Of a DNA stretch of 36,037 nt, positions 17,449-34,407 are shown piece after piece. The notes beneath the pieces were generated by a model that searched no databases, had not been told where the DNA came from, and saw only the letters and a program-made list of their open reading frames with translations. Position 1 is the stretch's first letter. Every line of letters begins with the position of its first letter. Both the position numbers and the translations under genes were made by a program. Origin of the DNA: Oscillospiraceae bacterium (GTDB lineage: Bacteria > Bacillota > Clostridia > Oscillospirales > Oscillospiraceae); assembly GCA_017430985.1 (NCBI GenBank), contig JAFRLZ010000079.1, forward strand, positions 1-36,037, given 5' to 3'.

Positions 17449-17480
17449 GGTGACACACCCCCATGGAGAGGAGCGTTCGC

Positions 17481-20671: not shown

Positions 20672-20701
20672 TTGACAATTTTACATCGTTTATTGTATAT
20701 T
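20672..20701 (+). promoter_or_regulatory. Promoter of the TRAP transporter operon
   Basis: TTGACA (20672-20677), 18 bases, TATATT (20696-20701), preceded by an AT-rich UP-like stretch. The predicted start is near 20708. Confidence 0.75.
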
Positions 20702-20711
20702 GTATTCGTCA

Positions 20712-20727
20712 GTTTGTATCAACAAAC
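20712..20727. promoter_or_regulatory. Operator palindrome at the TRAP transcript start
   Basis: GTTTGTATCAACAAAC has perfect 6-bp arms and lies just downstream of the predicted +1. It shares 12 of 16 positions with the site at 25263-25278 in front of deoR, so the DeoR-type protein is the likely binder. Confidence 0.55.
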
Positions 20728-20802
20728 GCACGGAAAGACCCGGCGGAGCAGGGAAAGAATTCCTGTTTCGGCGGGAAACCAAAAAAACAAGGAGGAAACC
20801 AA

Positions 20803-21897
20803 ATGAAAAAGATCCTGGCACTGCTGCTGGCGCTGACCATGGTGTTCGCGCTGGCCGCCTGCGGACAGCAGGCCGCTCCCGCCCCCGCTGAAAAGCCCGC
20901 CGAGGCTCCGGCCGACAAGCCCGCCGAGGCCCCTGTGGACGACACCGTCTACACGCTGAACTTCTACCACATCTTCGCTGCCGAGGAATCCGGCGGACAT
21001 GAGTCCCTCTGGATCAACAAGGCCGTCGAAGAGGTGGCCAAGCAGTCCAACGGCCGTCTGGTCATCAACGTTGGTCCCGGCGGCACGATGGGTTCTGAGG
21101 AAGAGCTGATCCCGCAGGTCTTCTCCGGCGACCTTGACATGAGCCTCTCCGGCCCGTCCGTCTGGGGCACCGTCGGCCAGATCGACGCCATCGGCTGGTC
21201 CGAGCTTCCCTACGTTGTCGACAACTACTCCCAGATGAACGCTCTGGGCGAGATCCTGCCCGACCTGACCAACAAGCAGCTCGAGGAAGCCGGCATCGGC
21301 CTCTACTGCCTGGGCGCCATGAGCCAGGGCATCCGCTGCCTCTGCACCGTTGAGAGCGCGAAGGTCGAGACCGTCGATGACTGCAAGGGCCTGCGCATCC
21401 GCGTCCCGCAGTCTGACGTTTATGAAGCCACCGTCGCCGGCTGGGGCTGCGCTCCCACCGCGATGAGCTCCTCTCAGGTCATCACCAGCCTTGCCAACGG
21501 CACCATCGAAGGCCTTGAGTCCGACCCGGCCTCCATCCTGGCCCGCGGCCAGCAGGAAGCCTTCCACTGGTACATCGAGACCTACCACATCGCCTCCCTG
21601 AACCTGCTGATGATCAACAAGGCCAACCTCGAGGCTCTGCCTGCCGACCTGCAGGAGATCCTGATCTCCGTCTTCAAGGATTACTGCGTGCAGCAGTGCT
21701 ATGACCGCGAGATCGTCAACAACGCTCTGCTCGACGACATCAAGGCCGCCGGCGTCGAAGTCATCACCCCGACTCCCGAGGCTTTCGAGGCCTTCAAGTC
21801 CGCCGACACCCCGTTCCGTGATCAGAAGATCGCCGAGTGGGGCGACGAGGCCATCTTCCAGGAGGCCCTCGATTACGTTGCCGCCAACGCGAAATAA
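20803..21897 (+). CDS. dctP: TRAP transporter substrate-binding lipoprotein
   Basis: A 364-residue extracytoplasmic solute receptor. The lipoprotein signal peptide ends with the lipobox LAAC (Cys20). An Ala/Pro/Glu/Lys-rich tether follows (about 21-46), then a DctP-type fold. The conserved carboxylate-binding region is GLRIRVPQSDVYEATVAGWG, where the Arg normally salt-bridges an acidic ligand. SDLDMS-like and ELPYVVDNY segments also match the family. This suggests an organic acid substrate, of unknown identity. AAGGAGG lies 7 bases before the ATG. Codon choice is more biased (many GCC/GAG/ATC) than in the neighbours, fitting high expression. A terminator-like hairpin separates it from dctQ. 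Confidence 0.94.
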   Translation: MKKILALLLALTMVFALAACGQQAAPAPAEKPAEAPADKPAEAPVDDTVYTLNFYHIFAAEESGGHESLWINKAVEEVAKQSNGRLVINVGPGGTMGSEEELIPQVFSGDLDMSLSGPSVWGTVGQIDAIGWSELPYVVDNYSQMNALGEILPDLTNKQLEEAGIGLYCLGAMSQGIRCLCTVESAKVETVDDCKGLRIRVPQSDVYEATVAGWGCAPTAMSSSQVITSLANGTIEGLESDPASILARGQQEAFHWYIETYHIASLNLLMINKANLEALPADLQEILISVFKDYCVQQCYDREIVNNALLDDIKAAGVEVITPTPEAFEAFKSADTPFRDQKIAEWGDEAIFQEALDYVAANAK

Positions 21898-21936
21898 GAT
21901 TCCCGGATCAACATTGCATATCTGACATGAGCGGTT

Positions 21937-21972
21937 CCGGAGAGCCCATTCCGGGCTCTCCGGGATCTTTTT
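21937..21972 (+). terminator. Partial terminator between dctP and dctQ
   Basis: An 11-bp perfect stem (21937-21947 with 21953-21963), loop ATTCC, followed by GATCTTTTT. There is no obvious promoter before dctQ, so it probably sets a higher level of binding protein than of membrane subunits. Confidence 0.78.
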
Positions 21973-22031
21973 CAGGGCGGCCTGCCGCCCGTCCGACACT
22001 CCCTTAAACTATCCGAGAGAGGGAATCGCCT

Positions 22032-22604
22032 ATGAAAAAACTGCTGAAACTCTACTGTAAATTCGACGACGTCGTGGAAAAGATCATCAAGTGGTTCTGC
22101 GCGGCGCTGCTCTTTATCATGATCTGCGTGTGCTTCGTCAACACCGTGAGCCGCTACGCCTTCCACCACTCCTTCCGCGCGGCGGAGGAGATCGTTATCC
22201 TCTGCGCCGTCTGGGTCACCTGCGTCGGCGCTTCGCTGACGGCGCGCGAGGACGATCACGTCACCCTGGACCTGCTGCAGGAGCTCATCAAGAACCACAA
22301 GGTCAAAGCCGTCCTCTACGCGATCACCAGAGTGCTCACCTGCTTCTTCCTGATCGCGCTGCTGCCGGCCGCCTTCAAGATGGTCCGGATCTACGCGCCC
22401 ATGAAGCTGACCGGCACGGGCCTGCCCCAGTGGGTGCTGTACGTTTCCTATGTCGTCGGCTCCATCGCCATGGCGCTCGGCTACCTCCGCATCACGCCGG
22501 GCAAGGTGATCGCCCTGTGGAAGGGCACCGAGGAAAAATCGGAATACGAGAAGATCAACGAAACCGAAAAAGAACAGCTTGCAGAAAAGGAGGGTGATGC
22601 ATAA
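22032..22604 (+). CDS. dctQ: TRAP transporter small membrane subunit
   Basis: A 190-residue protein with four predicted membrane helices: WFCAALLFIMICVCFVNTV, the EEIVILCAVWVTCVGASL region, LYAITRVLTCFFLIALLPA and WVLYVSYVVGSIAMALGYL. The conserved pattern SRYAFHHSFRAAEEI and the helix-2 AVWVTCVGASLTAREDDHVTLD are typical of DctQ. DctQ partners DctM in Na+-driven uptake from the DctP receptor. The cytoplasmic C-terminus is unusually rich in Glu and Lys. A GAGAGGGA ribosome site precedes the ATG. The stop codon abuts the dctM start. Confidence 0.93.
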   Translation: MKKLLKLYCKFDDVVEKIIKWFCAALLFIMICVCFVNTVSRYAFHHSFRAAEEIVILCAVWVTCVGASLTAREDDHVTLDLLQELIKNHKVKAVLYAITRVLTCFFLIALLPAAFKMVRIYAPMKLTGTGLPQWVLYVSYVVGSIAMALGYLRITPGKVIALWKGTEEKSEYEKINETEKEQLAEKEGDA

Positions 22605-23894
22605 ATGTTAGTGATCGCCTGCATTTCTCTGCTCGCTTTGATGCTGCTGGGCGTGCCTATCACCTTCTCGCTCCTCGGCGCGGGCTTTTTCGCCGTCGCG
22701 CTGGGCAACGGCGGCATCCAGATGTACATGAACTGCCGCGGCTTCATCAGCGGCGTCAACTCCTTCACCCTGATGGCGATCCCCTTCTTCATGATCTCGG
22801 GCGCCATCATGAACCAGGGCGGTCTGTCCAAGCGCATCATCCAGTTCTGCTCCGCCCTGTTCTCCTGGCTGCGCGGCGGCGTCGGCATCGTCTGCGTCGC
22901 GGCGAACATGATCTTCGGCGCGGTCTCCGGCTCCGGCACGGCGGCGGTCGCCGCCATCGGCTCCATCACGGCGCCGGACATGGAGAAGATCGGCTACAAA
23001 AAGGAATTTACCGGCGCCATGATCGCGGGCGCGGCCTCCACGGCGCCGATCATCCCGCCCGGCAACGTCATGATCATGTTTGCCGCCATCACCGGCCTGT
23101 CGATCACGCGTATGTTCCTCGCCGGCTATACCCCCGGCGTCGTGATCGGCGTCATCCTGATGACCATCTGCCACTTCTACGCGAAGAAGCACAACATCGA
23201 CTACGGCGGCAAGTTCGAGCTCAAGAAGGTCGGTAAGGCCCTGTACGAGTGCTTCTGGGCCCTGCTGATGCCCCTGATCATCATCATCGGCATCACGGCC
23301 GGCTTCTGCACGCCCACCGAGGCGGGCGCCATCGCCTGCGTCTACGGCCTGATCGTCGGCATCTTCTTCTACAAGGAGCTCAACTTCAAGAAGATCACCA
23401 AGGTCCTCTTCAACGCGGCCGAGGGCACCGGCCAGATCCTGTCCCTGTACGCGGCCTCCACGATGTTCGCCTACATCTTCACGGTCGAGGGCTTCGGCAA
23501 GGTCTTCCAGGAGTGGCTGATGAACGTCTCCTCCGGCAACCCGACCGTCATCATGCTCCTCGTCGGCGCCTTCGTGCTGCTGATCGGCTGCTTCATGGAG
23601 CCGGTCGCGGTCATGCCCGTGGTGCTGCCGCTGGTCTACCCGCTGCTGCAGAAGATGGGCGTGGACATGGTCCAGTTCGGTCTGCTCTTCACCCTGTGCA
23701 CCGTCATCGGCGGCCTGACGCCGCCTGTCGGCAGCTACCTCTTCGTCACAGTCACGGTCGTCCGGGTCGGCGTAACGAAGCTGATCCCCTGGATGATGGT
23801 CATGATCCTGGTCGACATTATCGTGGTCCTGATGATCACCTTCATCCCCGGCTTCTGCTCCTGGCTGCCGAACGCGCTGCTCGGCCCGATGTAA
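22605..23894 (+). CDS. dctM: TRAP transporter large permease subunit
   Basis: A 429-residue protein with about 12 predicted helices, the ion-transporter subunit of a TRAP system. Family motifs include the LLGVPITFSLLGAG start, SGSGTAAVAAIGSITAPDMEKIGY, APIIPPGNVMI, TPTEAGAIACVYGLIVG, and the C-terminal GGLTPPVGSYLFV. Its ATG directly follows the dctQ stop, with AGGAGGGTGA inside dctQ. A strong terminator with a TTCG loop follows, so dctPQM is a closed unit. Confidence 0.96.
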   Translation: MLVIACISLLALMLLGVPITFSLLGAGFFAVALGNGGIQMYMNCRGFISGVNSFTLMAIPFFMISGAIMNQGGLSKRIIQFCSALFSWLRGGVGIVCVAANMIFGAVSGSGTAAVAAIGSITAPDMEKIGYKKEFTGAMIAGAASTAPIIPPGNVMIMFAAITGLSITRMFLAGYTPGVVIGVILMTICHFYAKKHNIDYGGKFELKKVGKALYECFWALLMPLIIIIGITAGFCTPTEAGAIACVYGLIVGIFFYKELNFKKITKVLFNAAEGTGQILSLYAASTMFAYIFTVEGFGKVFQEWLMNVSSGNPTVIMLLVGAFVLLIGCFMEPVAVMPVVLPLVYPLLQKMGVDMVQFGLLFTLCTVIGGLTPPVGSYLFVTVTVVRVGVTKLIPWMMVMILVDIIVVLMITFIPGFCSWLPNALLGPM

Positions 23895-23908
23895 CTGCCG
23901 CATAAAAA

Positions 23909-23944
23909 ACACAAAAAGCGAGACTTCGGTTTCGCTTTTTGTGT
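23909..23944. terminator. Terminator of the TRAP operon
   Basis: A 13-bp stem (23909-23921 with 23932-23944) capped by a further C(TTCG)G tetraloop, with A-rich and T-rich arms. Confidence 0.9.
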
Positions 23945-23965
23945 CTCCCCGTTCGGAGTGTTCGC

Positions 23966-24454
23966 ATGGATAACAACAAGTTCAGTCTGTACCGCAGGAT
24001 CCGCTACGACAGGACCTACCGCACCCTCGGCAAGATGAGCTGGTGGCGCGTCACGCTCGGCACGCTGCTCCTGCTCTCGATCCTCTTCTTCACCGGGATC
24101 GTCTCCCGCCCCTTCGAGGCGCGGGGCGAGTTCCGCACGGCCAAAGCGCTGCTGATCACCCCCGCCTGGCTGGCGCACTACCACCCGGAGGACCTGGCCT
24201 ACATCGAGGCCGGCATCCTCTACCAGGACGGCGACTACGAGGCCGCGCTGGAGGCCTTCCGGGGTCTGGATACCGACGCCGCCGGGGCCATGCGGAGCCG
24301 CGCGGCGCTGAAGCTCGCGGGTCTGAGGCTCGCCGAGGGCGACGAGGCCGGGGCCGCCGCGCTTTTGGACGAGGTGGACGCCTCGGTTCTGACAGAGGCG
24401 GAGGCTCAGTCCTATGCCGCGCTGCAGACGGCGCTCGGCGCTCCCGCCGCATAA
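23966..24454 (+). CDS. Single-pass membrane protein with TPR-like tail
   Basis: A 162-residue protein I cannot assign to a named family. A basic N-terminus (YRRIRYDRTYRTLGKMS) is followed by one membrane helix, VTLGTLLLLSILFFTGIV, at about 31-48. The outward-facing tail carries two short helical hairpins, AGILYQDGDYEAALEAFRGL and KLAGLRLAEGDEAGAAALLDEV, that look like tetratricopeptide repeats. It might be a small scaffold or envelope protein. GGAG lies 7 bases before the start. It lies just after the TRAP terminator and may depend on readthrough, since no promoter is evident. Confidence 0.7.
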   Translation: MDNNKFSLYRRIRYDRTYRTLGKMSWWRVTLGTLLLLSILFFTGIVSRPFEARGEFRTAKALLITPAWLAHYHPEDLAYIEAGILYQDGDYEAALEAFRGLDTDAAGAMRSRAALKLAGLRLAEGDEAGAAALLDEVDASVLTEAEAQSYAALQTALGAPAA

Positions 24455-24480
24455 AAAAAAGACCGGCCGGAGCCGGTCTT
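24451..24480. terminator. Terminator between the TPR-like protein and deoR
   Basis: A 9-bp stem (24459-24467 with 24472-24480), loop CGGA. On the minus strand it is followed by a run of T, so it is a strong terminator for the regulator gene. On the plus strand the following TTGCAAGAGCTTTT is weaker. Confidence 0.8.
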
Positions 24481-24490
24481 GCAAGAGCTT

Positions 24491-25240
24491 TTATGCGTAC
24501 AGGATCGTCGTCATGGACTCGTATTCCTCCGCGGTGTCGGAGCGCAGGGTGATGAGCCCGTCGCAGTCCCGCAGCTCGACGACCCGGGCCACGGCGCTCT
24601 GGCCGAGCTTGGAGCCGTCGCAGAGGATATACTTGTGTCTGGCGCAGTTCAGAATGATCTTCTCCACCGAGGCGACCGCCAGGTTGTCGCTGAACACGAC
24701 GCCGCCGCCGTCGATGGCGTCGCAGCCGATGAAGGCGTAGTCCACCTGCCTGATCGAGCGGAAGTATTCCGCCGCCTCGCTGCCGGTGATCGTGCCGGTG
24801 CGGCTGCGGAGGATGCCGCTGCTGATGTGCACCTCGAGTCCCGGGCAGCGCGCCAGATAGTCGGCGGTCTGCAGGGAGTTCGTATAGACCGTGCCCTTGG
24901 TCAGGTCGTCCAGGAGGTTCGCCAGTCCGTAGATGGAGGTCCCGCTGCCCAGGGCGACAGTCGCCCCGGCGGGGATCAGCGAACGGGCGCGCTCGGCGAT
25001 GCGGCGCTTCTCCGCGATGTTCTTGTGCAGCTTGCTCTCAAAGCTCTCGTCCGGCACGCGGTTGACCGGCATCACGCCGCCGTAGGTGCGGATAACCAGT
25101 CCGTTCTCCTGCATGACCGCCAGCTGCTTGCGCAGCGTGGACACCGAGACGCCCAGCAGGCCGCTCAGCTCCTCGACCGACATGGCGCCGCGGCTCTCCA
25201 GAAAGTCGATGATCCTCTGTTCCCGTCTGGCTGTTTTCAT
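24491..25240 (-). CDS. DeoR-family transcriptional regulator
   Basis: A 249-residue protein. The N-terminal winged helix-turn-helix reads MKTARREQRIIDFLESRGAMSVEELSGLLGVSVSTLRKQLAVMQENGLVIRTYGGV. The pattern SVSTLRKQLAVMQ in place of the usual SxxTIRRDLxxLE is a variant. The C-terminal DeoR sensor domain has ALGSGTSIYGLA and VYTNSLQTADYL, a fold that normally binds a phosphorylated sugar or polyol intermediate. That points to a phosphorylated inducer for the adjoining cluster. The start at 25240 follows a GGGGGGTGA ribosome site; an in-frame extension to 25366 would cross the promoter. It is divergent from the six-gene cluster. Confidence 0.92.
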   Translation of the reverse strand: MKTARREQRIIDFLESRGAMSVEELSGLLGVSVSTLRKQLAVMQENGLVIRTYGGVMPVNRVPDESFESKLHKNIAEKRRIAERARSLIPAGATVALGSGTSIYGLANLLDDLTKGTVYTNSLQTADYLARCPGLEVHISSGILRSRTGTITGSEAAEYFRSIRQVDYAFIGCDAIDGGGVVFSDNLAVASVEKIILNCARHKYILCDGSKLGQSAVARVVELRDCDGLITLRSDTAEEYESMTTILYA

Positions 25241-25262
25241 GCGCTCACCCCCCGAGCAGACA

Positions 25263-25304
25263 GTTTGAAAAAACAAAAAATATTTTACCTCAATTTCGCG
25301 GATT
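25263..25304 (-). promoter_or_regulatory. deoR promoter and putative self-operator
   Basis: On the minus strand TGTACA is followed after 17 bases by TAAAAT (25287-25282). At the expected transcript start lies GTTTGAAAAAACAAAA (plus-strand 25263-25278), matching the TRAP operator at 12 of 16 positions. This suggests autoregulation. Confidence 0.5.
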
Positions 25305-25329
25305 TGTACAGAAAAAAATGCTCTCCGCG
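25297..25329. repeat. Inverted repeat in the deoR / six-gene cluster intergenic region
   Basis: CGCGGA (25297-25302) and TCCGCG (25324-25329) enclose an AT-rich 21-base spacer. Further on, GGCGG-CTGT-CCGCC forms a small hairpin near 25349-25362. No good -10 was found for the plus-strand cluster, so its promoter is not assigned. Confidence 0.4.
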
Positions 25330-25402
25330 AGATCCGTCCGTTGACAACGGCGGCTGTCCGCCGCAAAACAATACATTTTTATTTCAATGAGGAGGAATTG
25401 TT

Positions 25403-26077
25403 ATGAGACCCGACATCATCATCATGCTGACCCACCACGACGTGACCGTGAAGAACGCGGCCGAGGTATTCGAGGAATGCAAGGACCTCGAAGAAGTCAA
25501 GTACTGGGGCTTCAAGAACGTCGGTCTGCCCAAGGATCAGATGAAGGCGCTCGTCAAGGCCATGAAGGACGCCGGCAAGACCACCTTCCTCGAGGTCGTC
25601 ACCTATGACGAGGCCAGCTGCCTCGACGGCGCGCAGACGGCGATCGACTGCGGCTTCGACTACCTCATGGGCACCCTCTACTATGACTCCGTCGCCAAGC
25701 TCCTGAAGGACAACGGCATGGAGTACCTGCCCTTCGTCGGCAAGGTCTCCGGCAGCCCGAGCATCCTTGAGGGCACCAACGAGGAGATCATCCAGAACGC
25801 GAAGGACCTCATGGCCAAGGGCATCGAGGGCTTCGACATCCTCGCCTACCGCCATGTGATCGACGGCGAGAAGCTGGCCTACGAGTTCTGCGCGGCCGTC
25901 CCCGCCAAGATCTGCATCGCCGGCAGCATCAACAGCTTCAAGCGCATCGACACCATGTTCGACATCGGCCCCTGGACCTTCACGATGGGCTCGGCACTGT
26001 TCGAGAAGAAGTTCGTCCCGACGGGCTCCTTCCGCGACAACCTCGTCGCCGTCGCCTACTACATGAAGGCGAAATAA
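25403..26077 (+). CDS. TIM-barrel protein of unknown function (HisA-like, first gene of the cluster)
   Basis: A 224-residue protein whose alternating beta/alpha pattern (DIIIMLTHHD, VKYWGFKNVGL, KTTFLEVVTYDE, FDYLMGTLYYDS, YLPFVGKVSG, GFDILAYR, ICIAGSINSFKRI, TFTMGSALFEKKF) reads as a complete eight-stranded barrel. AGSINS (173-178) and MGSALF (195-200) sit where ribulose-phosphate-binding barrels such as HisA hold the ligand phosphate. I do not recognise a characterised member. A phosphosugar or phosphopolyol isomerase, epimerase or aldolase is the best inference. Its close spacing with the permease and the divergent DeoR gene points to the same pathway. The ribosome site GAGGAGG is present. 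Confidence 0.8.
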   Translation: MRPDIIIMLTHHDVTVKNAAEVFEECKDLEEVKYWGFKNVGLPKDQMKALVKAMKDAGKTTFLEVVTYDEASCLDGAQTAIDCGFDYLMGTLYYDSVAKLLKDNGMEYLPFVGKVSGSPSILEGTNEEIIQNAKDLMAKGIEGFDILAYRHVIDGEKLAYEFCAAVPAKICIAGSINSFKRIDTMFDIGPWTFTMGSALFEKKFVPTGSFRDNLVAVAYYMKAK

Positions 26078-26151
26078 ATCGCAAAACCCGGAAGAAAAAG
26101 AGAGAAAGCGGACAAACCACAGAGAAAACGTAAAGGAGGAGAAAACAAATT

Positions 26152-27525
26152 ATGAAAAAGCAGATGCGTCCGATCGACGTTCTTGCCGTCGCGCTCGGCT
26201 CGATCATCGGCTGGGGCTGCTTCGTTATGCCGGGCAACTCCTTCCTCCCCGCGGCCGGCCCCATCGGCACCTTCATCGGTCTGTTCCTCGCGGCCATCAT
26301 GGCCTACATCATCGCGCAGAGCTACAGCTTCCTGATCCGCAAGTACCCCGTCGAGGGCGGCGAGTTTGAGTACGTCACCCAGGCCTTCGGCAAGAAGCAC
26401 GCCTTCATCTGCGGCTGGTTCCTCGTGCTGGCCTACATCAGCTTCATCCCCCTTAACGGCACGGCCATCGGTCTGATCACCCGTTACCTGCTGCCCGGCA
26501 CGATCCTGCAGAAGACCCTGCTGTGGAACATCGGCGGCTTTGACGTGTACCTCGGCGAGATCATCCTGACGATGCTGATCGTCGTGATCTTCATGTTCAT
26601 CAACATCAAGGCCGTCAAGGTGGCCTTCATGTCCCAGACCTTCCTGGCCATCGCGCAGACCGCGATCATCATCATCTTCCCGATCGTCATCATCGCCACC
26701 GGCCACGCCAACTTCTCCTACATGCACCCGCTCATGACGGGCAGCAAGGGCGAGAGCGTGCTCTCGGGCATCGCGGTCATCCTCTCGATGGCGCCCTGGG
26801 CCTTCGTCGGCTTCGACGTCATCCCGCAGGTCTGCGAGGAGTATGATTTCGACCAGTCCAAGGCCCGCACGCTGATGATCAGCACCATCGCGGCCGCCTG
26901 GATCATGTACTCCTGCAGCACCATCACCACCGCCATCGTGCAGCAGGAGGGCTTTGCCTCCTGGTCCGACTTCCTGAACTCCAATCCCTTCTGGGCCACC
27001 GGTGCCGCCGTGGAGAAGGCTCTCGGCAAGCCCGGCCTCTACATCCTCGGCTTCGCGATGGCCTGCGCGGTGCTTTCGGCCATCAACGGCTTCTTCATCG
27101 CCTCCGCCCGTCTGATCGCCGCCATGGCCAAACGGAAGGCTCTGCCCTCCGTCTTTGCCAAGCGCAACGAGGGCGACGGCGCCCCGGTCGCGGCCGTCCT
27201 CTTCGTCGGCGTGATCGCCCTGTTCGCCCCCTGGTTCGGCCGCAGCGCCCTGGCCTGGATCGTCGATATGACCTCCTTGGGCACCTCGGTCGTGTTCCTG
27301 TACGTGTGCCTGGCCGCCATGAAGTTTGCCAAATCGGAAGGCAACGACAAGGTGCGCAAATGGGGTATCGCCGGCGCTGTCTGCTCGATCATCTTCATCG
27401 CCCTGATGGTCATCCCCGGCTCCGCCGCCGCGCTCTACAAGCAGGCCTGGATCATGCTGGCCATCTGGATCGTCCTCGGCATCATCTTCTGGAGCGTCAA
27501 GCGCAAGGATTATCTTGGCAACTAA
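26152..27525 (+). CDS. APC-superfamily permease
   Basis: A 457-residue membrane protein with about 12 predicted helices. The helix-1 signature SIIGWGCFVMPG corresponds to the amino acid-polyamine-organocation motif GxGIF. A helix-6 equivalent, MAPWAFVGFDVIPQVCEEY, resembles the substrate-binding FxGFD/E segment of amino acid and ethanolamine-type permeases. The substrate is probably an amine or amino acid, but the context of phosphosugar-type enzymes makes that uncertain. An AAAGGAGG ribosome site precedes the ATG, and the gap from the TIM barrel is 74 bases. The cluster thus has a second transporter beside the TRAP system. Confidence 0.9.
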   Translation: MKKQMRPIDVLAVALGSIIGWGCFVMPGNSFLPAAGPIGTFIGLFLAAIMAYIIAQSYSFLIRKYPVEGGEFEYVTQAFGKKHAFICGWFLVLAYISFIPLNGTAIGLITRYLLPGTILQKTLLWNIGGFDVYLGEIILTMLIVVIFMFINIKAVKVAFMSQTFLAIAQTAIIIIFPIVIIATGHANFSYMHPLMTGSKGESVLSGIAVILSMAPWAFVGFDVIPQVCEEYDFDQSKARTLMISTIAAAWIMYSCSTITTAIVQQEGFASWSDFLNSNPFWATGAAVEKALGKPGLYILGFAMACAVLSAINGFFIASARLIAAMAKRKALPSVFAKRNEGDGAPVAAVLFVGVIALFAPWFGRSALAWIVDMTSLGTSVVFLYVCLAAMKFAKSEGNDKVRKWGIAGAVCSIIFIALMVIPGSAAALYKQAWIMLAIWIVLGIIFWSVKRKDYLGN

Positions 27526-27557
27526 GCCGACGGAAAGCCGGACGACACGCAATAACG

Positions 27558-27591
27558 GCGCAGCCCCGGGACTCCGGCCCCGGGGCTGTGC
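27558..27591 (+). repeat. Intra-operon hairpin before the second TIM barrel
   Basis: A long GC-rich hairpin (CAGCCCCGGG with CCCGGGGCTG, extended by G-U and G-C pairs). It has no T-run and is immediately followed by the ribosome site GGAGG. It is more likely a stabiliser or processing site than a terminator. Confidence 0.6.
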
Positions 27592-27603
27592 GGAGGGAAC
27601 GAC

Positions 27604-28404
27604 ATGAGGATATCCGCATCAGAATTTATCCTGTTTTGCCAGCCCCCGCTGGAAAACGTCCGCACGCTCAGCCGCATCGTCCCGGAGGTCGAGCTGATGA
27701 TGGACGGCGACGCCTGGGAGCACGGCGAGGATGGCTGGCCGGAGCTAGCCGCCCAGCTCAAGGACTGCGGCGTGCCCTTCTCCGTGCATCCGCCCGCCTG
27801 GGACGTCAACCCCGCCGCGCCTCTGAAGGCGCTGCGCGACGCCGCGGCTTTCCTGAACAAACAGGCGGCCGTCTTCTGCCGCGAGATCGGTGGGACGCAG
27901 ATCGTCTTCCACCCCGGCTACTACGACCGGGACTCCAACTTCAGCCGCAGCCGGGCGCTGGACGCCTCCTACGCGCTGCTGGAGGAAATGATTGCGCTCT
28001 GCCGGGACAGCGGCATCACGATCGCCTACGAGAACATCGCCGGCCCCTCCATGGCTCTGTTCACCCAGGAGGAATACATCCACGCGCTCGACGGGATCGA
28101 CCCCTGCGTCAAGTTCCTGCTGGACGTGGGCCACGCGCACTGCAACCACTGGGACATCCCCGCCGTGATCGACCGCCTCGGGGACCGGTTCTGCGGCTTC
28201 CACCTGCACGACAACGACGGCACGGGCGACGCGCATCTGCCCATCGGCCGCGGCACGATCCCCTGGGAGGGGGTCTTCGCCGCCATGCGCCGCCTGCCGG
28301 GCGATCCGCTCTACGTGCTGGAATACGCGACCAACACGCCGCTGCGGGAGCTGGAGCTCGGCCGCGACCTCCTGCTGCGCGAGATAGGAGAAAAACAAGC
28401 TTGA
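27604..28404 (+). CDS. Xylose isomerase-like TIM barrel (sugar phosphate isomerase/epimerase)
   Basis: A 266-residue protein of the AP-endonuclease-2/xylose isomerase superfamily. Metal-binding candidates fit the family order: Glu143 in IAYENIAG, Asp174 and His177 in LLDVGHAHCN, His200/His202 in GFHLHDND, and Glu240 in VLEYAT. His103 in VFHPGYYD is also conserved. Members are divalent-metal isomerases, epimerases or dehydratases acting on ketoses, keto-polyols or tetrulose phosphates. The ribosome site GGAGG is 7 bases upstream, directly after the hairpin. The stop overlaps the TTG start of the flavin reductase gene. Confidence 0.88.
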   Translation: MRISASEFILFCQPPLENVRTLSRIVPEVELMMDGDAWEHGEDGWPELAAQLKDCGVPFSVHPPAWDVNPAAPLKALRDAAAFLNKQAAVFCREIGGTQIVFHPGYYDRDSNFSRSRALDASYALLEEMIALCRDSGITIAYENIAGPSMALFTQEEYIHALDGIDPCVKFLLDVGHAHCNHWDIPAVIDRLGDRFCGFHLHDNDGTGDAHLPIGRGTIPWEGVFAAMRRLPGDPLYVLEYATNTPLRELELGRDLLLREIGEKQA

Positions 28405-28895
28405 ACGACCTTACCATCGGCCAGGCCCAGCGCCTGACCGCGCCCGCCCCCTTTGCGCTGCTCTCCGCCCGAAAGGAGGACGGCGGCGACAATCTGATGG
28501 CGGTATCCTGGTGGACGTATCTGTCCAACCGCCCGCCCATGCTCGGCGTGTGCCTGAGCAAAAAGGGCCTCAGCGGCTCGCTGATCGAGCGCAGCGGCGT
28601 CTTCACGCTCAGCGTCGTCGGAGACTCGCTGAAGGACGCGGCGCTCCAATGCGGGCGCTGCTCCGGCCGCGATCACGACAAGGCCGCCGAATTCGGCATC
28701 CCGCTGGAGCCGGCCGCCGCGATCGAGGCCAGCCTCGTCTCCGGCAGCCGCGTCGCCTACGAGTGCCGGCTGACCGGCAGCGTCGAGGCCGGGGACCACG
28801 TTTTCTATCTGGCGGAGATCCTGCTCTGCCATGGCGACGCGGAGATCCCCCAGCTCTTCGCGTGGGACGGCTACGCCCGTCTGGATACGATCTGA
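28401..28895 (+). CDS. Flavin reductase-like domain protein
   Basis: A 164-residue FMN-binding split-barrel protein. The pattern includes APFALLSARKEDGGDNLMAVSWW, the FMN-binding PPMLGVCLSKKGLSG, the SGVFTLSVVG segment, and CRLTGSVEAGDHVFYLAEI near the end, all typical of the flavin reductase family (HpaC/DIM6). The start is taken as TTG at 28401. It overlaps the upstream TGA and has AGGAG 10 bases before it; no ATG exists nearby. It could supply reduced flavin or act as a redox partner, but no flavin monooxygenase is in the cluster, so an anaerobic redox role is likelier. This is inference. Confidence 0.86.
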   Translation: MNDLTIGQAQRLTAPAPFALLSARKEDGGDNLMAVSWWTYLSNRPPMLGVCLSKKGLSGSLIERSGVFTLSVVGDSLKDAALQCGRCSGRDHDKAAEFGIPLEPAAAIEASLVSGSRVAYECRLTGSVEAGDHVFYLAEILLCHGDAEIPQLFAWDGYARLDTI

Positions 28896-28925
28896 AAAGA
28901 TCTGATAAGAAAAGAGGTAATGCTT

Positions 28926-30176
28926 ATGATTATGGATTGCACGAAATATATCGGCCCGTGCAGCTGCGGCCGCGACCATGAGCTCGAGACCAAAATGGTC
29001 GTCGTCGAATACGACGCGCTCAGCCGCTTCGAGGAATACATGGCGGCGGTGGGTCTCGGCGACAAGCGCCGCACCGTGGTTTACGACAGCTTCGTCTACG
29101 GGCTGACCGAGGGCAAGCACATCAAGGCCGATCAGGAGATCGTCCTGCCCGCGGAGGGGCTGCGCTCCGAGGACGTGCTGATCGAGGACATGATGACCAA
29201 GCTCGACCGTCCCGAGGTCCTCGTGGCCTTCGGCGCCGGCACCATCATGGATTTCGGCCGCTATCCCGCCTACAAGCTCGGCATCCCCTTCGTCGCGATC
29301 CCGACCCTCGCCAGCTCCGACGGCTTCACGGCCAGCATCTGCTCCGTGATCCTCAAGGGTCAGAAGAAGTCCATCTCGATGAAGGCGCCCGCTCTGGTCG
29401 TGGCGGACCTGGACATCATCAAGGGCGCGCCGAAGCGCCTCGTGTCCAGCGGCGTCAACGACATCCTGGCCAAGTACGTCTCCCTCGCCGACTGGAAGAT
29501 GGCCACGCTCGTCTCGGGCGAGGACTACTGCCCGATGGTCGCCGGTCTGGCGCAGGAAGCGCTGGACATCATGCGCGCGGCCGCCGACAAGATGGCCGCT
29601 ACGGGCGAGATCGACCACGAGGCCATGACCATGGCGCAGATGAAGAGCGGCCTGACCATGCAGCTCTGGGACAACTCCCGCGCCGCCTCCGGCGCCGAGC
29701 ACCTGATGGCGCACCTCGTGGAGATGAAGCCGCCGCGCTTTGAAAAGGCCGAGGGCATCCACGGCGAGTGCGTCGGCGTCGGCACCTTCGCGGCTGTGAA
29801 GGAATACCACCGCCTCGCGAAGCTCCGCCCGAAGGCCAAGCCCTTCGAGCCGCTCACGAGCGAGTGGGTCATGGAGAAGTTCGGCGAACGCCTCTACGAC
29901 GGTATCATGAAGGAGAACGCCCCGGATAAGGACATCCTCGGCAAGTTCGATCCGCAGAACATCGTCGACCACTGGGACGAGATCGTGGACATCATCAACA
30001 CCATCCCGCCCGCCGACGAGCTCGAGGCCCTGTACAAGGCCTGCGGCTGCAAGTACCTGCCGGAGCACATCGGCATCGACCCGAGCCTCTCGGAGGAGGC
30101 GCTGGACATCTCTGCGGCCATCCGCAACCGTCTGACGCTCATCCGCATGAAGCGCGTGCTGGATTTCGGGGAATAA
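28926..30176 (+). CDS. sn-Glycerol-1-phosphate dehydrogenase-family protein (first of two)
   Basis: A 416-residue NAD(P)-dependent dehydrogenase of the glycerol-1-phosphate dehydrogenase/AraM group within the iron-type alcohol dehydrogenase superfamily. The nucleotide-binding motif is VAFGAGTIMDFGRYPAY (about 100-116), followed by PTLASSDGFTAS (127-138). The likely metal ligands are complete: Asp179 in SGVNDILAK, His259 in RAASGAEHLMAH and His279 in GIHGECVG. AraM-type enzymes interconvert dihydroxyacetone phosphate and glycerol-1-phosphate. A related polyol phosphate could be the substrate here. The extended N-terminus has a Cys pair, PCSCGRDHE. The start at 28926 has AGAGG 8 bases upstream; ATGs at 28920 and 28932 fit less well. 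Confidence 0.87.
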   Translation: MIMDCTKYIGPCSCGRDHELETKMVVVEYDALSRFEEYMAAVGLGDKRRTVVYDSFVYGLTEGKHIKADQEIVLPAEGLRSEDVLIEDMMTKLDRPEVLVAFGAGTIMDFGRYPAYKLGIPFVAIPTLASSDGFTASICSVILKGQKKSISMKAPALVVADLDIIKGAPKRLVSSGVNDILAKYVSLADWKMATLVSGEDYCPMVAGLAQEALDIMRAAADKMAATGEIDHEAMTMAQMKSGLTMQLWDNSRAASGAEHLMAHLVEMKPPRFEKAEGIHGECVGVGTFAAVKEYHRLAKLRPKAKPFEPLTSEWVMEKFGERLYDGIMKENAPDKDILGKFDPQNIVDHWDEIVDIINTIPPADELEALYKACGCKYLPEHIGIDPSLSEEALDISAAIRNRLTLIRMKRVLDFGE

Positions 30177-30191
30177 AAAGGAGATGGAATC

Positions 30192-31640
30192 ATGTTAGAT
30201 AAACGTCTGATCGAAGCCGACGCCTCGAAGCTCGACGAGCTGCGGGACATCATGGCTCACCAGGAGCACCCGGAAAAGCTCCATGACATCGCGATGAAGG
30301 CCGTTCTCATCGAGCACGGCGCCGTGGAAAAGCTGACGGACTGCGTCCGGTCGCTGACCTCCGGCAAGAAGGTCCTCATGGTCACGGGCCCCACGCTCAT
30401 CCAGAACACCCACGAGCAGAACGTCAAGGAGGCCGTCTACGCCCAGCTGCAGAAGAGCTTCGACGTGGAGTGGCTCGTCATCAGCGAGCCGAACAGCATC
30501 GTCCACTGCACGCCCGAGAACGCCGCGAAGATCCAGGCCCGCCTGGAAGGCGTGGACTGCGTGGTCGGCGTCGGCTCCGGCACGATCTGCGATCTGAACA
30601 AATACGCCACCTACACCGCGAACCATGAAAACCCGCTGCCGCTCATCATCGTGCAGACGGCGCTGTCCGTCAACGCCTTCTCGGACAACTCCTCCGTCAT
30701 GCTCTTCTCCGGCGTCAAGCGCACGGTGCACTCCCGCTATCCGACCATCCTGATCGTCGACATCGACATCGTCACCGCCGCCCCGGCCGAGATGAACGTC
30801 AGCGGCTACGGCGACCTGATCGCCACCTGGACGGCGCCGGTGGACTGGTATCTGGGCAACGTCATCGGCATGGGCAGCGGCAACTTCCACACCGCGCCCT
30901 CGGACATGATCCGCACCCAATGCGAGCGTCTGCTCGAGAATTCCGAGAAGCTCGCGGCCGGTGATCCGAAGGTCATCGGCGATCTCGCGAACGTCCTCAC
31001 ACTCAGCGGCTTCTCGATGGGCCTGGCCGACGAAAGCTCCCCCGCCTCCGGCTCGGAGCACGTCATGAGCCACCTGATCGACATGTCCTCCGGCGTGCGC
31101 AAGACCGGCATCTGCTACCACGGCACGCAGGTGGCCGTGTCCGGCATCATCTCCTGCATCCTCTGGGATTACCTGCTCAAGGAGTTCGACCCCAAGAGCG
31201 TCGACCTTGACAAGTGCTATCCCACGCTCGAGGAGATGGAGCCGCGCGTGAAGGCCGCCTTCGGCTGGCTGGACGATACGGGCGCCGCCGCCAAGGAGTG
31301 CTGGTCGGACTACCAGAAGAAGCTGAACAAGTGGCACGCCCACAAAGAGGAGTTCAAGGCCTTCCTCGACAACTTCGATGAGTTCAAGGCGCAGGTGGCC
31401 GGCTGGGTCAAGGATCCGGCCTACATCGCCGACTGCATGCACAAGGCCAACGCCCCCTGCCGCTACAAAGATCTGAACTTCCCCGTACCGGCCGACACGG
31501 TGCGCTGGGCCATCACCAACTGCCATCTGATGCGCAACCGCTTCTCCATCATCGACCTGCTGCACTTCACAGGCGTCTGGAGCGACGAGTTCGTGCAGAT
31601 GGTGCTTGACCGCGCCGAAGCACTTGACGCGGGGCTGTAA
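30192..31640 (+). CDS. sn-Glycerol-1-phosphate dehydrogenase-family protein (second, divergent)
   Basis: A 482-residue protein, longer than usual for the family (about 350-400). The nucleotide motif GVGSGTICDLNKYATY is at about 126-141. The ligand set Asp208 (SGYGDLIA), His290 (SPASGSEHVMSH) and His310 (ICYHGTQVA) is intact. The SSDGFTAS region of the first enzyme is replaced by SVNAFSDNSSVML, so the substrate pocket differs. The extra C-terminal part (WSDYQKKLNKWHAHKEEFK onward) is helical. The two proteins are clearly paralogous but not a recent duplication, suggesting two different steps or a heteromer. The ribosome site AAGGAG is about 8 bases upstream and the gap from the first gene is 15 bases. 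Confidence 0.85.
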   Translation: MLDKRLIEADASKLDELRDIMAHQEHPEKLHDIAMKAVLIEHGAVEKLTDCVRSLTSGKKVLMVTGPTLIQNTHEQNVKEAVYAQLQKSFDVEWLVISEPNSIVHCTPENAAKIQARLEGVDCVVGVGSGTICDLNKYATYTANHENPLPLIIVQTALSVNAFSDNSSVMLFSGVKRTVHSRYPTILIVDIDIVTAAPAEMNVSGYGDLIATWTAPVDWYLGNVIGMGSGNFHTAPSDMIRTQCERLLENSEKLAAGDPKVIGDLANVLTLSGFSMGLADESSPASGSEHVMSHLIDMSSGVRKTGICYHGTQVAVSGIISCILWDYLLKEFDPKSVDLDKCYPTLEEMEPRVKAAFGWLDDTGAAAKECWSDYQKKLNKWHAHKEEFKAFLDNFDEFKAQVAGWVKDPAYIADCMHKANAPCRYKDLNFPVPADTVRWAITNCHLMRNRFSIIDLLHFTGVWSDEFVQMVLDRAEALDAGL

Positions 31641-31659
31641 TTGCCATAGAATAGTCTGA

Positions 31660-31684
31660 GGGGCCGGAGCTGCGCTCCGGCCCC
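31660..31684. repeat. Hairpin after the dehydrogenase pair
   Basis: An 11-bp perfect stem GGGGCCGGAGC/GCTCCGGCCCC with loop TGC. No T-run follows on either strand, so it may stabilise the mRNA end or be a weak terminator. Readthrough into the MgtC-like gene is possible. Confidence 0.6.
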
Positions 31685-31729: not shown

Positions 31730-32443
31730 ATGGAGAATTACATACTGACCTTCCCGGTCAAAGAGATCATATGCTTCTGTCTGCGCCTGCTCATTGCCTG
31801 TGCCTGCGGCGCGGCCATCGGCTTTGAGCGCAGCAAGCGCTTCAAGGAGGCCGGCATCCGCACGCATATCATCGTCTGCGTCGGCGCGGCCCTGGCCATG
31901 GTCATCTCCAAATACGGCTTTGAGGACCTGGCCGGCATCCTGGACGGCTCACGCACCTCGGACCCGGCCCGTGTGGCGGCGCAGGTCGTCACCGGCATCA
32001 GCTTCCTCGGCGCGGGCGTCATCTTCAAAAACGGCGGCACCATCAAGGGCCTGACCACGGCGGCATGCCTCTGGGCCACGGCGAGCATCGGTCTGGCCAT
32101 CGGCTGCGGCGGCGGCATGCTCATCATCGGCGTCTTTTCCACGGTGCTGGTGACGGCCGTGCAGATCCTGCTGCACCGCTACGCCGTCGGCTCCGACGCC
32201 TACACGGCCAATCGCCTGCAGTTCACGGTCAAAAACGGCTATGAGTTCAACCGCTCGCTGACCAAGCAGCTGGAGGAATGGGGCGCCACGGTCGCCGAGA
32301 GCAAGATCGACCGCCGCAAGGACGGCACGACGGAGTACGACATCACGATCCGCCGCAAGCAGGAGCTCAGCTACGACGAAATGAAGACCTTCATGGACGC
32401 GCACGGCGAGATCCTGAGCGCGAGCAACAGTCCGCTGCGATAA
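31730..32443 (+). CDS. MgtC/SapB-family membrane protein
   Basis: A 237-residue protein with four to five predicted membrane helices and the MgtC family signature: CACGAAIGFERSKRFKEAGIRTH, VCVGAALAMVISKY, and VVTGISFLGAGVIFKNGGTIKGLTTAA. A cytoplasmic ACT-like C-terminal domain of about 85 residues follows (LQFTVKNGYEFNRSL onward). MgtC proteins are linked to growth at low Mg2+ and to ATP synthase control in pathogens; here the role is unknown. No clear promoter is visible, and it may be carried by the upstream transcript. A strong terminator follows. Confidence 0.92.
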   Translation: MENYILTFPVKEIICFCLRLLIACACGAAIGFERSKRFKEAGIRTHIIVCVGAALAMVISKYGFEDLAGILDGSRTSDPARVAAQVVTGISFLGAGVIFKNGGTIKGLTTAACLWATASIGLAIGCGGGMLIIGVFSTVLVTAVQILLHRYAVGSDAYTANRLQFTVKNGYEFNRSLTKQLEEWGATVAESKIDRRKDGTTEYDITIRRKQELSYDEMKTFMDAHGEILSASNSPLR

Positions 32444-32960: not shown

Positions 32961-33003
32961 GAAAGCAGAATGCGCACGCGCGCGAAAAAAGGGGAACGAG
33001 ACT

Positions 33004-34407
33004 ATGAGTAAAGAAAAAACCTCCCGCCTCGGCTACCAGTCCACCAAGAAGGAATACGTCGCCTACTGCCTGTTCTTTCTCGGTCAGAACCTCCTGTGGG
33101 GCTATGCCGGCTACATTGAGACCTTCCTGACCGACATCGGCATCGCGGCCGCAACGGCGGCGGCGATCCTCATCATCCCCAAGCTCTGGGACGCGGTGAA
33201 CGATGTGCTCTTCGGCTATATCGTCGACCGGCACATGTTCAAAAACGGCCAGAAGTTCATGCCCTGGGTGCGCATCGGCACCTCGGCCGTCGGCATCACG
33301 ACGGTCGCCCTCTTCGCCATCCCGGCCTCCATGTCCAGCGGCGGCAAGGTGGCCTGGTTCCTGATCGCCTACATCCTCTTCGACCTCTGCTACACGATCC
33401 TCGACGCGCCGGCCTTCGCCGTCACGACGGTCATGACCTCGAACGTGCAGGAGCGCACCGGCATCATCGCCGGCGGCAAGCTCTGGTCGATGGTCGGCGG
33501 TGTGGTGTCCACGGTGCTCATCCCGATGATCCGCCCGAAGCTCGGCTGGCTCACGGCCTGCATCGTGTTCGTGGTCGTCTCGATCATCCTGATGATCCCG
33601 ATGCTCTTCACGGTCAAGGAGCGGCACTCCGAGGAGGTGCTCGCCACCGAGAACCCGACCTTCAAGGAGATGCTCAAGTACCTGAAGAGCAACAAGTATC
33701 TGATCTTCGTGCTCCTCGCCATGCTGCTGCTCGGCCTGTCGAGCGTGGAGCAGAAAATGGCCATCTACATGGGCCGCATCTGCCTCGGCCAGGAGAACAT
33801 GGCGACGCTCGTCGCCGCCGGCGTGGCGGTCTCCGTCATCGCCGTTTCGGCGATCGTGCCCGTGCTCGCAAAGCGCTGGGACAAGTTCGACGTGCTCTGC
33901 GCCGGCCTCGCCTTCGCGATCGTGATGGATGTCATCACCTTCTTCGTGGGCTACGGCAACCTGATCGTCGCGCTCATCCTCATCATGCTCAAGTGCACCG
34001 GCCTCGGCTTCTGGCAGGTCATCATCTACATGCTCATCGCCGACACCGTCGAGTACGGCACCTACAAGTCCGGCACTCGCGCGGCGGGCATCACCTTCAG
34101 CCTGCAGGCCTTCATCGCCAAGCTCAAGAACGCGCTGATCGGCACCATCGTGCTGCTGAGCCTCTCCGCCGTCCACTTTGTCGAGGGCGAGAACGCCGTG
34201 CAGCCCGCGGGCGTGGCCGAGGGCGTGTGGGGCCTCTTCACGCTCCTGCCCGCGGCGGGCTTCACCGTGGCGCTCATCATCCTGCTGCTGTTCTACAAGC
34301 TGCGCAGCAAGGACGTGCAGACCATGGCTCAGTACAACAACGGCGAGATCGGCCGCGAGGAAGCCGACGCCCTGTTGGCTGAGAAGTACGGCGCTCCCGC
34401 GAAATGA
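33004..34407 (+). CDS. GPH-family (MelB-like) sugar:cation symporter
   Basis: A 467-residue membrane protein with about 12 helices of the glycoside-pentoside-hexuronide:cation symporter family. Signatures are IIPKLWDAVNDVLFGYIVDR (the conserved Asp pair after helix 1-2) and DTVEYGTYKSGTRAAGITFS at about 347 onward, the diagnostic family motif. It probably imports a glycoside or uronide with Na+ or H+. The ATG at 33004 lies about 9-10 bases after AAGGGG. Its stop overlaps the next start as ATGA, tying it to the phosphodiester-glycosidase-like protein. Confidence 0.93.
   Translation: MSKEKTSRLGYQSTKKEYVAYCLFFLGQNLLWGYAGYIETFLTDIGIAAATAAAILIIPKLWDAVNDVLFGYIVDRHMFKNGQKFMPWVRIGTSAVGITTVALFAIPASMSSGGKVAWFLIAYILFDLCYTILDAPAFAVTTVMTSNVQERTGIIAGGKLWSMVGGVVSTVLIPMIRPKLGWLTACIVFVVVSIILMIPMLFTVKERHSEEVLATENPTFKEMLKYLKSNKYLIFVLLAMLLLGLSSVEQKMAIYMGRICLGQENMATLVAAGVAVSVIAVSAIVPVLAKRWDKFDVLCAGLAFAIVMDVITFFVGYGNLIVALILIMLKCTGLGFWQVIIYMLIADTVEYGTYKSGTRAAGITFSLQAFIAKLKNALIGTIVLLSLSAVHFVEGENAVQPAGVAEGVWGLFTLLPAAGFTVALIILLLFYKLRSKDVQTMAQYNNGEIGREEADALLAEKYGAPAK

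Follow-up and report, generated by a model that had tools for sequence, protein, structure and literature searches.

Several described systems share features with a gene cluster at 20803-31640 of a 36,037-nucleotide stretch of DNA from an Oscillospiraceae bacterium (GenBank assembly GCA_017430985.1, contig JAFRLZ010000079.1), referred to here as the window. The cluster encodes a tripartite ATP-independent periplasmic (TRAP) importer, a divergent DeoR-family regulator, an unclassified TIM barrel (TIM), an APC-family permease, a xylose-isomerase-like barrel, a flavin-reductase-like protein (Flav), and two proteins resembling glycerol-1-phosphate dehydrogenase (G1PDH), named G1Pa and G1Pb. The yiaKLMNO-lyxK-sgbHUE operon of Escherichia coli likewise encodes both a TRAP importer and a TIM barrel of the phosphate type, and in one relative of the window locus (L064) the likeness extends to an FGGY kinase, a class II aldolase-type gene, and a cupin. 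The window, in contrast, has G1PDH-like enzymes instead of an FGGY kinase and an aldolase-type gene, and its permeases score 37/260 bits (DctQ against YiaM) and 229/800 bits (DctM against YiaN).

The threonate and erythronate pathways that use DUF1537 and PdxA2, or an aldolase and DUF1537, are similar in their DeoR-type control, as reported in PMC10580937, and relatives of TIM adjoin such genes in some proteobacteria; the cassette genes of the window, however, include no such kinase, PdxA, or decarboxylase. Dehydrogenases of the EgsA/AraM type, of which AraM of Bacillus subtilis is reported to have G1PDH activity (PMC5059525), are represented by a solved G1PDH (9h4x) that is the best match of both window dehydrogenases. 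Both nevertheless score under the NCBIfam cut-off, and G1Pb is longer and has an asparagine for the aspartate of the SSDG motif. The phosphate-binding barrels HisA and NanE align weakly with the C-terminal part of TIM family members, but the window TIM itself gave no match. Finally, the D-apiose pathway, which uses an FGGY kinase and a two-subunit transketolase, is resembled by relatives of TIM that lie beside apparent transketolase halves (assigned by eye) and an ABC importer (L061 and L078), but no transketolase is found among the cassette genes of the window.

An earlier reading of the window from its sequence (the original prediction) knew of no described pathway with this gene set, and none was found in the open-access literature searched; nor did that literature yield a paper naming both glycerol-1-phosphate dehydrogenase and a TRAP transporter. 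Our favored reading, to which we give slightly less than an even chance, is that the cluster is a DeoR-controlled cassette through which a small acidic polyol or sugar derivative, imported by TRAP, would be catabolized via phosphorylated intermediates. The genes are as follows.

20803-21897, + strand: DctP, TRAP receptor (PF03480, 148.8 bits)
22032-22604, + strand: DctQ, TRAP small permease (PF04290, 82.9 bits)
22605-23894, + strand: DctM, TRAP large permease (PF06808, 346.5 bits; TIGR00786, 351.8 bits, cut-off 268)
23939-24454, + strand: additional open reading frame 3' of DctM, 171-residue protein without a Pfam or NCBIfam match
24491-25240, - strand: DeoR-family regulator, divergent from TIM (PF00455, 123.5 bits; PF08220, 48 bits)
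25403-26077, + strand: TIM, unclassified TIM barrel (no Pfam or NCBIfam family; AF2 pLDDT 96.8)
26152-27525, + strand: APC-family permease, optional (PF13520, 132 bits)
27604-28404, + strand: xylose-isomerase-like TIM barrel, optional, paired with the APC permease (PF01261, 124.9 bits)
28401-28895, + strand: Flav, flavin-reductase-like protein (PF01613, 96.2 bits)
28920-30176, + strand: G1Pa, short G1PDH-like protein (PF13685, 83.8 bits; NF002022, 155 bits)
30192-31640, + strand: G1Pb, divergent long G1PDH-like dehydrogenase (PF13685, 79.1 bits)

The gene list and coordinates of the original prediction were right: each gene is an open frame at its position, with the domains as read, and DctP, DctQ, DctM, DeoRC/HTH_DeoR, AA_permease_2, AP_endonuc_2, Flavin_Reduct, and both copies of Fe-ADH_2 all scored above the Pfam gathering threshold. 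The DeoR start (ATG at 25240) was chosen by eye, as the longest frame extends to 25366.

Distribution and location of the cassette

Genomes of the genus were surveyed for the cassette genes (102 genomes; DctP orthologs were accepted at E ≤ 1e-60, with 19 of up to 80 candidates scored per genome). TIM was present in 11 genomes and DctP orthologs in 10, every one of them among the 11 TIM genomes (hypergeometric probability 5e-13, genome relatedness ignored); the TIM genome without DctP is G084, whose contig stops inside TIM. Flav orthologs of at least 66% identity occurred in 10 genomes, each with TIM, and the homologs of G014, G107, and the TIM genome G077 reached just 29-31%. TRAP, TIM, and G1Pb were encoded at one locus in 10 genomes, on a single contig in 9 of them and on two contigs in G009, for which adjacency is concluded from G1Pb being split across both contig ends. 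G1Pb shared a locus with TIM in each of the 11 TIM genomes, and within the genus it is specific to the cassette; among the 10 TRAP-bearing loci DeoR was found at 8 (not L045 or L046) and Flav at 9 (not L051). Gene order and strand vary among these loci, and since gene content is kept while order changes, the linkage appears to be functional rather than passive synteny.

Judged by gene content and location, TRAP, TIM, and G1Pb, mostly with DeoR and Flav, are one patchily inherited cassette. This supports the single uptake-plus-catabolism system that had been predicted, and the rarity of TRAP operons next to the enzyme cluster, named beforehand as the outcome that would speak for separate systems, was not what the 102 genomes showed. 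Patchiness is illustrated by 7 genomes without TIM whose G1Pa is 85-90% identical to that of the window, set beside G002, which has TIM at a G1Pa identity of 70%, a comparison that rests on incomplete genomes and on G1Pa, which is not equal to a species tree. Several of the cassette-bearing relatives carry ruminant-gut names. The evidence throughout is drawn from sequence. The source genome of the window is itself 81% complete (93 contigs), so that absences from it are weak evidence; genes in the fetched loci were called by a home-made composition-based caller.

G1Pb is rare. Samples of 393 other genomes from the order and 397 from the phylum yielded no match at E ≤ 1e-60, though named loci outside the genus do contain it, for instance in Selenomonas bovis (72% identity; L059). 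Among the named loci in which TIM is at least 73% identical (L044-L060), 16 of 17 contain G1Pb, and the remaining one is a 3.3-kb contig. Divergence of the genes points the same way. In comparisons between loci, all of which involve non-independent pairs, TIM identity correlated with the identities of G1Pb (rho 0.66, 91 pairs) and DeoR (rho 0.57, 45 pairs), and less closely with that of Flav (rho 0.40, 55 pairs). There was no tracking between TIM and G1Pa (rho 0.18, 66 pairs, p 0.15), and G1Pa tracked G1Pb weakly (rho 0.34, p 0.006).

The genes that would bring substrate into the pathway vary within the clade of the window. Some members have TRAP; L052, L053, L058, and L059 instead have an APC permease and an FGGY kinase, yet keep the same TIM and G1Pb. 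The APC permease of L058 scored 347 bits as an ethanolamine permease (cut-off 382). In the genus, the APC and xylose-isomerase-like genes occur as a pair, in 3 of the 11 TIM genomes, and would rather provide a second way in. The suggested combination of uptake and exchange by two unrelated transporters is consequently not favored, given that the permease is optional and comes with its partner in 3 of 11. The 171-residue protein has a homolog of at least 40% identity at 7 of the 10 TRAP-bearing loci and one of 35% at L050 and L051, and L048 stops within DctM. At L046, L050, and L051, extra TRAP genes, 22-34% identical to those of the window, lie downstream of the cassette.

TIM and the G1PDH-like proteins

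TIM belongs to no family in Pfam or NCBIfam. In its confident AF2 model (pLDDT 96.8, pTM 0.92), strands and helices follow one another as in an eight-fold barrel. In an alignment of the window protein with 69 of 80 TIM proteins (6 close to the window and 5 ragged or truncated sequences were omitted, and some N-termini were trimmed), D13, K38, E64, and R150 were invariant in 70/70 sequences and D145 was conserved in 68/70, a pattern to be expected if TIM is an active enzyme. Weak Pfam matches were obtained for His_biosynth (39/70 members, the best at E 2e-5), NanE (9/70), and nitronate monooxygenase (8/70), and the window TIM itself gave no HisA/NanE-type Pfam match even at E ≤ 1. Both these matches and the profile hits against solved HisA and NanE chains map to the C-terminal part, which is the phosphate-binding region of such barrels. 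We propose that TIM is a sugar-phosphate isomerase or epimerase. Identity as an OMPDC-type decarboxylase was dropped, as the DxKxxD motif of that family was not seen by eye.

A scan of a named genome collection confirmed 85 TIM loci, of which 80 were kept and 79 counted for context (L123 had no called TIM gene). They come from Bacillota, Bacteroidota, Chloroflexota, and two Actinomycetota (a Streptomyces and a Coriobacteriaceae metagenome-assembled genome), and further relatives occur in Pseudomonadota, including on proteobacterial plasmids. Within six genes of TIM, the 79 loci encoded VanW (36), an FGGY kinase (24), a G1P-type dehydrogenase (23), Flav (19), or DeoR (14). In the TIM tree, the window falls in a 13-row clade (support 100/99) in which all rows lie near a G1P-type dehydrogenase; the VanW-linked proteins form a separate clade, and the plasmid-borne proteobacterial members are distant (branch length 1.64). 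This tree includes a fused Aminobacter protein trimmed to 230 residues and a Rhizobium row labeled DUF1537, though the record lists that neighbor as hypothetical. The family thus defined is named by neither of the two curated libraries and spans these five phyla in several pathway settings. Solving one of these settings would aid in assigning the others, including the VanW-linked one.

In the VanW-linked setting (e.g., L066, L077, L081, L085, and L090, from Lachnospiraceae, Prevotella, and others), one or two VanW genes follow TIM, sometimes with a methyltransferase gene; on a Staphylococcus warneri plasmid (L128), TIM adjoins a vanW-like gene. On an Aminobacter aminovorans plasmid (L131:8986-10026), the TIM match lies inside a longer protein annotated with a cupin domain, apparently a TIM-cupin fusion, and small separate cupin-cluster genes adjoin TIM in L068, L073, and L076. 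The TIM proteins of L129, L130, and L134 are annotated as 4-hydroxythreonine-4-phosphate dehydrogenase, probably a name carried over from the adjacent pdxA. In L067, L070, L071, L072, L075, and L084, TIM shares its operon with an FGGY kinase, a class II aldolase, and a 2-hydroxyacid dehydrogenase, often together with Zn-alcohol dehydrogenase and PIG-L-like genes (the latter labeled by eye), an arrangement that would represent another catabolic cluster.

Both G1Pa and G1Pb contain the Fe-ADH_2 domain, have 9h4x as their best solved match (141 bits for G1Pa), and retain the two histidine motifs of G1PDH. The original prediction of two G1PDH paralogs holds as far as their presence goes, but the two are not equivalent. 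G1Pa has the SSDG motif, with its aspartate kept in 12/12 aligned G1Pa-type rows. G1Pb, which is 64 residues longer, has SVNA at this position, with asparagine in the aligned Bacillota rows and serine in seven Anaerolineae rows; among more distant relatives, those of Rubrobacter and Shinella keep the aspartate and that of Rhizobium has asparagine. Because this aspartate is replaced, G1Pb probably acts on a substrate other than G1P. The SSDG change first suggested that G1Pb had lost a metal ligand, but this idea was dropped, as the ligand aspartate of solved G1PDH structures aligns with a GxGD motif common to both proteins. Relatives of G1Pb adjoin FGGY, GlpD-like, aquaporin, or HAD genes. In Rubrobacter and Shinella, they lie beside FGGY kinases, GlpD-like enzymes, and either an aquaporin or a sugar ABC importer, neighborhoods that point to polyols or sugar phosphates.

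The two proteins also differ in distribution. Of the co-occurrence that had been put forward for checking, TIM with G1Pb stood at all 11 loci, but G1Pa turned out to be nearly genus-wide, with a match in 96 of the 102 genomes (two at just 39-42% identity). Ten of the 11 TIM genomes, G083 being the exception, have it at the cassette locus, and its neighbors differ among the nine cassette-free loci read, some being common to close genomes. The search for PcrB (PF01884) gave no hit in the 102 genomes, and 7 of 14 control genomes were positive (5 above the cut-off); the known bacterial G1P lipid route is therefore unlikely for G1Pa. The presence of a G1PDH-like gene nearly throughout the genus (e.g., L170-L178), in bacteria without detected PcrB, raises the question of what role this enzyme has there.

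Substrate and pathway

The TRAP receptor and its small and large permeases are encoded together. In DctP, the sequence GLRIRVPQ may include the conserved ligand-binding arginine known from SiaP. Thirty solved chains matched DctP at E ≤ 1e-15, and the best ones were about equally distant: an isethionate-binding DctP scored 79.6 bits, 4x04 79.5, and 4ng7 79.3. Reading the substrate from receptor similarity was abandoned, as isethionate, unnamed, and sialic-acid receptors score about equally. Among the TRAP ligands listed in a review (PMC5812351) are uronates, aldonates, glycerol-3-phosphate/diglycerol-phosphate, pantoate/D-erythronate, and ethanolamine.

The pairing of an acid-type importer with sugar-phosphate-type enzymes is plausible. 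The genes themselves, their joint inheritance, the variation in entry genes, and the conserved TIM residues are observed, and every reaction, its direction, the substrate, the phosphorylated intermediates, and control by DeoR are inferred. In the favored reading, the TRAP importer would take in the acidic substrate, TIM would isomerize or epimerize a phosphorylated intermediate, and G1Pb would catalyze an NAD(P)-linked reaction with a polyol or sugar phosphate as substrate. G1Pa may then join the product to glycolysis at the level of dihydroxyacetone phosphate, catabolism probably leading to triose phosphate, and Flav may hand electrons on via flavin. Entry would be modular: relatives would use an ethanolamine-permease-like APC transporter and an FGGY kinase, and the window would add the APC and xylose-isomerase-like pair. 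What is gained is a co-inherited catabolic unit, defined by its genes.

A number of observations weigh against this reading. Both dehydrogenases score under the NF002022 cut-off of 413 bits (G1Pa 155, G1Pb 135), and G1Pa, being nearly genus-wide, may be a bystander. Divergence of Flav tracks neither G1Pb (rho 0.24, p 0.08) nor DeoR (rho 0.13, p 0.45), and the two TRAP loci at which DeoR was not found and the one at which Flav was not found fit poorly. Adjacency of TIM to VanW in 36 of 79 loci is a poor fit to a simple sugar role. Entry of phosphate is a further difficulty. No FGGY kinase was found inside the TRAP-form operons read (other kinase families were not searched in the unannotated neighbors of the relatives), and a PfkB-family gene of the window (17463-18422) has no homolog of at least 40% identity in the relatives' stretches. 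Nor was an ortholog of the linked FGGY kinase found for the TRAP form in the incomplete genome of the window, whose FGGY kinases are just 27-30% identical to the linked one. Either an unlinked kinase would act, or the imported compound would already bear an acidic group such as phosphate, and the latter allows for import of G1P esters.

A variant of a four-carbon acid-sugar pathway, in which TIM would act on a 4-phosphate intermediate derived from erythronate, threonate, or a 4-hydroxythreonine-like compound, is unlikely, though the most probable of the alternatives. In Aminobacter and Roseateles, TIM lies downstream of an annotated four-carbon-acid-sugar kinase and pdxA; in Rhizobium, it follows a pdxA-type gene and is also beside a hypothetical protein, in Gluconobacter it follows pdxA, and in L092 it is near pdxA and a D-threonate-kinase-like gene (274 bits, cut-off 450). 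TRAP receptors for pantoate/D-erythronate have been reported (PMC5812351), as has a DeoR-family repressor in the erythronate/threonate cluster of Brucella (PMC10580937). However, no DUF1537 kinase, PdxA/PdxA2, or OtnC is encoded among the genes at 20803-31640, and the proteobacterial TIM proteins are the distant branch of the tree.

Scavenging of G1P, which we consider quite unlikely, would have TRAP import sn-glycerol-1-phosphate or its esters, derived from archaeal lipids, phosphatidylglycerol, or lipoteichoic acid, with G1Pa oxidizing G1P to dihydroxyacetone phosphate and G1Pb and TIM processing a related phosphoester. As the substrate arrives phosphorylated, no kinase is needed, in line with the TRAP-form operons read, and G1Pa is widespread in a genus without detected PcrB. 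Some relatives bear ruminant-gut names, and methanogens inhabit ruminant guts. TRAP receptors for glycerol-3-phosphate/diglycerol-phosphate (PMC5812351) and bacterial G1P uptake by way of two ABC receptors (PMC12718374) have been reported. A glycerophosphodiesterase-like gene (130.9 bits, cut-off 264) is found in one Anaerolineae locus (L087), but there is no phosphodiesterase among the cassette genes. Moreover, the form of the same core with FGGY and APC carries a kinase and an ethanolamine-permease-like transporter, both superfluous for imported G1P; G1Pa is mostly found without the cassette, and G1Pb has lost the SSDG aspartate. The fullest version, in which gut bacteria would scavenge and catabolize G1P esters (G1P being the archaeal lipid backbone and a unit of lipoteichoic acid and of the head groups of phosphatidylglycerol) with a TRAP importer, a G1P dehydrogenase working in the catabolic direction, and a new TIM and G1Pb enzyme pair for a related phosphoester, has in our view little probability.

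It is very unlikely that the substrate is an amino-polyol or Amadori-type compound handled by the APC permease and a xylose-isomerase-like epimerase, as in fructoselysine systems. The permease does adjoin an AP_endonuc_2 protein with weak similarity to FrlC, and the related locus L058 has its ethanolamine-permease-like APC transporter; the pair is, however, absent from 8 of the 11 loci, and a fructoselysine system proper was rejected, as the FrlA and FrlC scores (26 bits, cut-off 800, and 29 bits, cut-off 305) are far below the NCBIfam cut-offs. Least probable by our estimate, and disfavored by the co-occurrence of TRAP and TIM (receptor only in TIM genomes, 10 of 11, with the contig of the eleventh, G084, ending within TIM), are two or more separate neighboring systems (the TRAP importer, the enzyme cluster, and the APC pair), for which the APC pair in just 3 of 11 genomes, the independent distribution of G1Pa, and the shared operator not seen at every locus can be cited.

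Regulatory sequences and neighboring genes

Three candidate regulatory elements were located around the two operons of the favored DeoR-controlled cassette.

20672-20701, + strand: sigma-70-like promoter before dctP, TTGACA, 18 bases, TATATT, as read from the sequence
20712-20727, + strand: candidate DeoR operator GTTTGTATCAACAAAC, just downstream of the promoter
25303-25310, + strand: TTTGTACA, possible DeoR half-site in the gap between DeoR and TIM (a single copy in the window, 0.10 expected)

A scripted promoter pattern matched 7 of 10 stretches upstream of dctP; that of the window was not among them, because the 130 bases taken for it started at 20673 and so missed the first base of the first box. 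An initial operator pattern, a palindrome of fixed spacing, gave 0 matches. The pattern TTTG(T/C)-N-(A/G)CAAA, which was picked post hoc, was present in 8 of the 10 stretches, against 0-2.4% of mononucleotide shuffles of each. In the 180 bases before TIM, TTTGTACA occurred at 3 of 9 loci, and extending the stretch to 260 bases added G021 and G009 (L040). Taken together, the promoter and repeats are compatible with control of both operons by DeoR, without proving it; an operator common to both operons was seen only in part, with a pattern picked after inspection.

Downstream of the cassette lies a further gene, which is a neighbor in 4 of the 11 genomes and is probably outside the pathway.

31730-32443, + strand: MgtC-family protein (PF02308, 121.4 bits)

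Further on, at 32998-35702, the window encodes an MFS_2 sugar-type transporter, followed by a protein with a phosphodiester glycosidase (NAGPA) domain.

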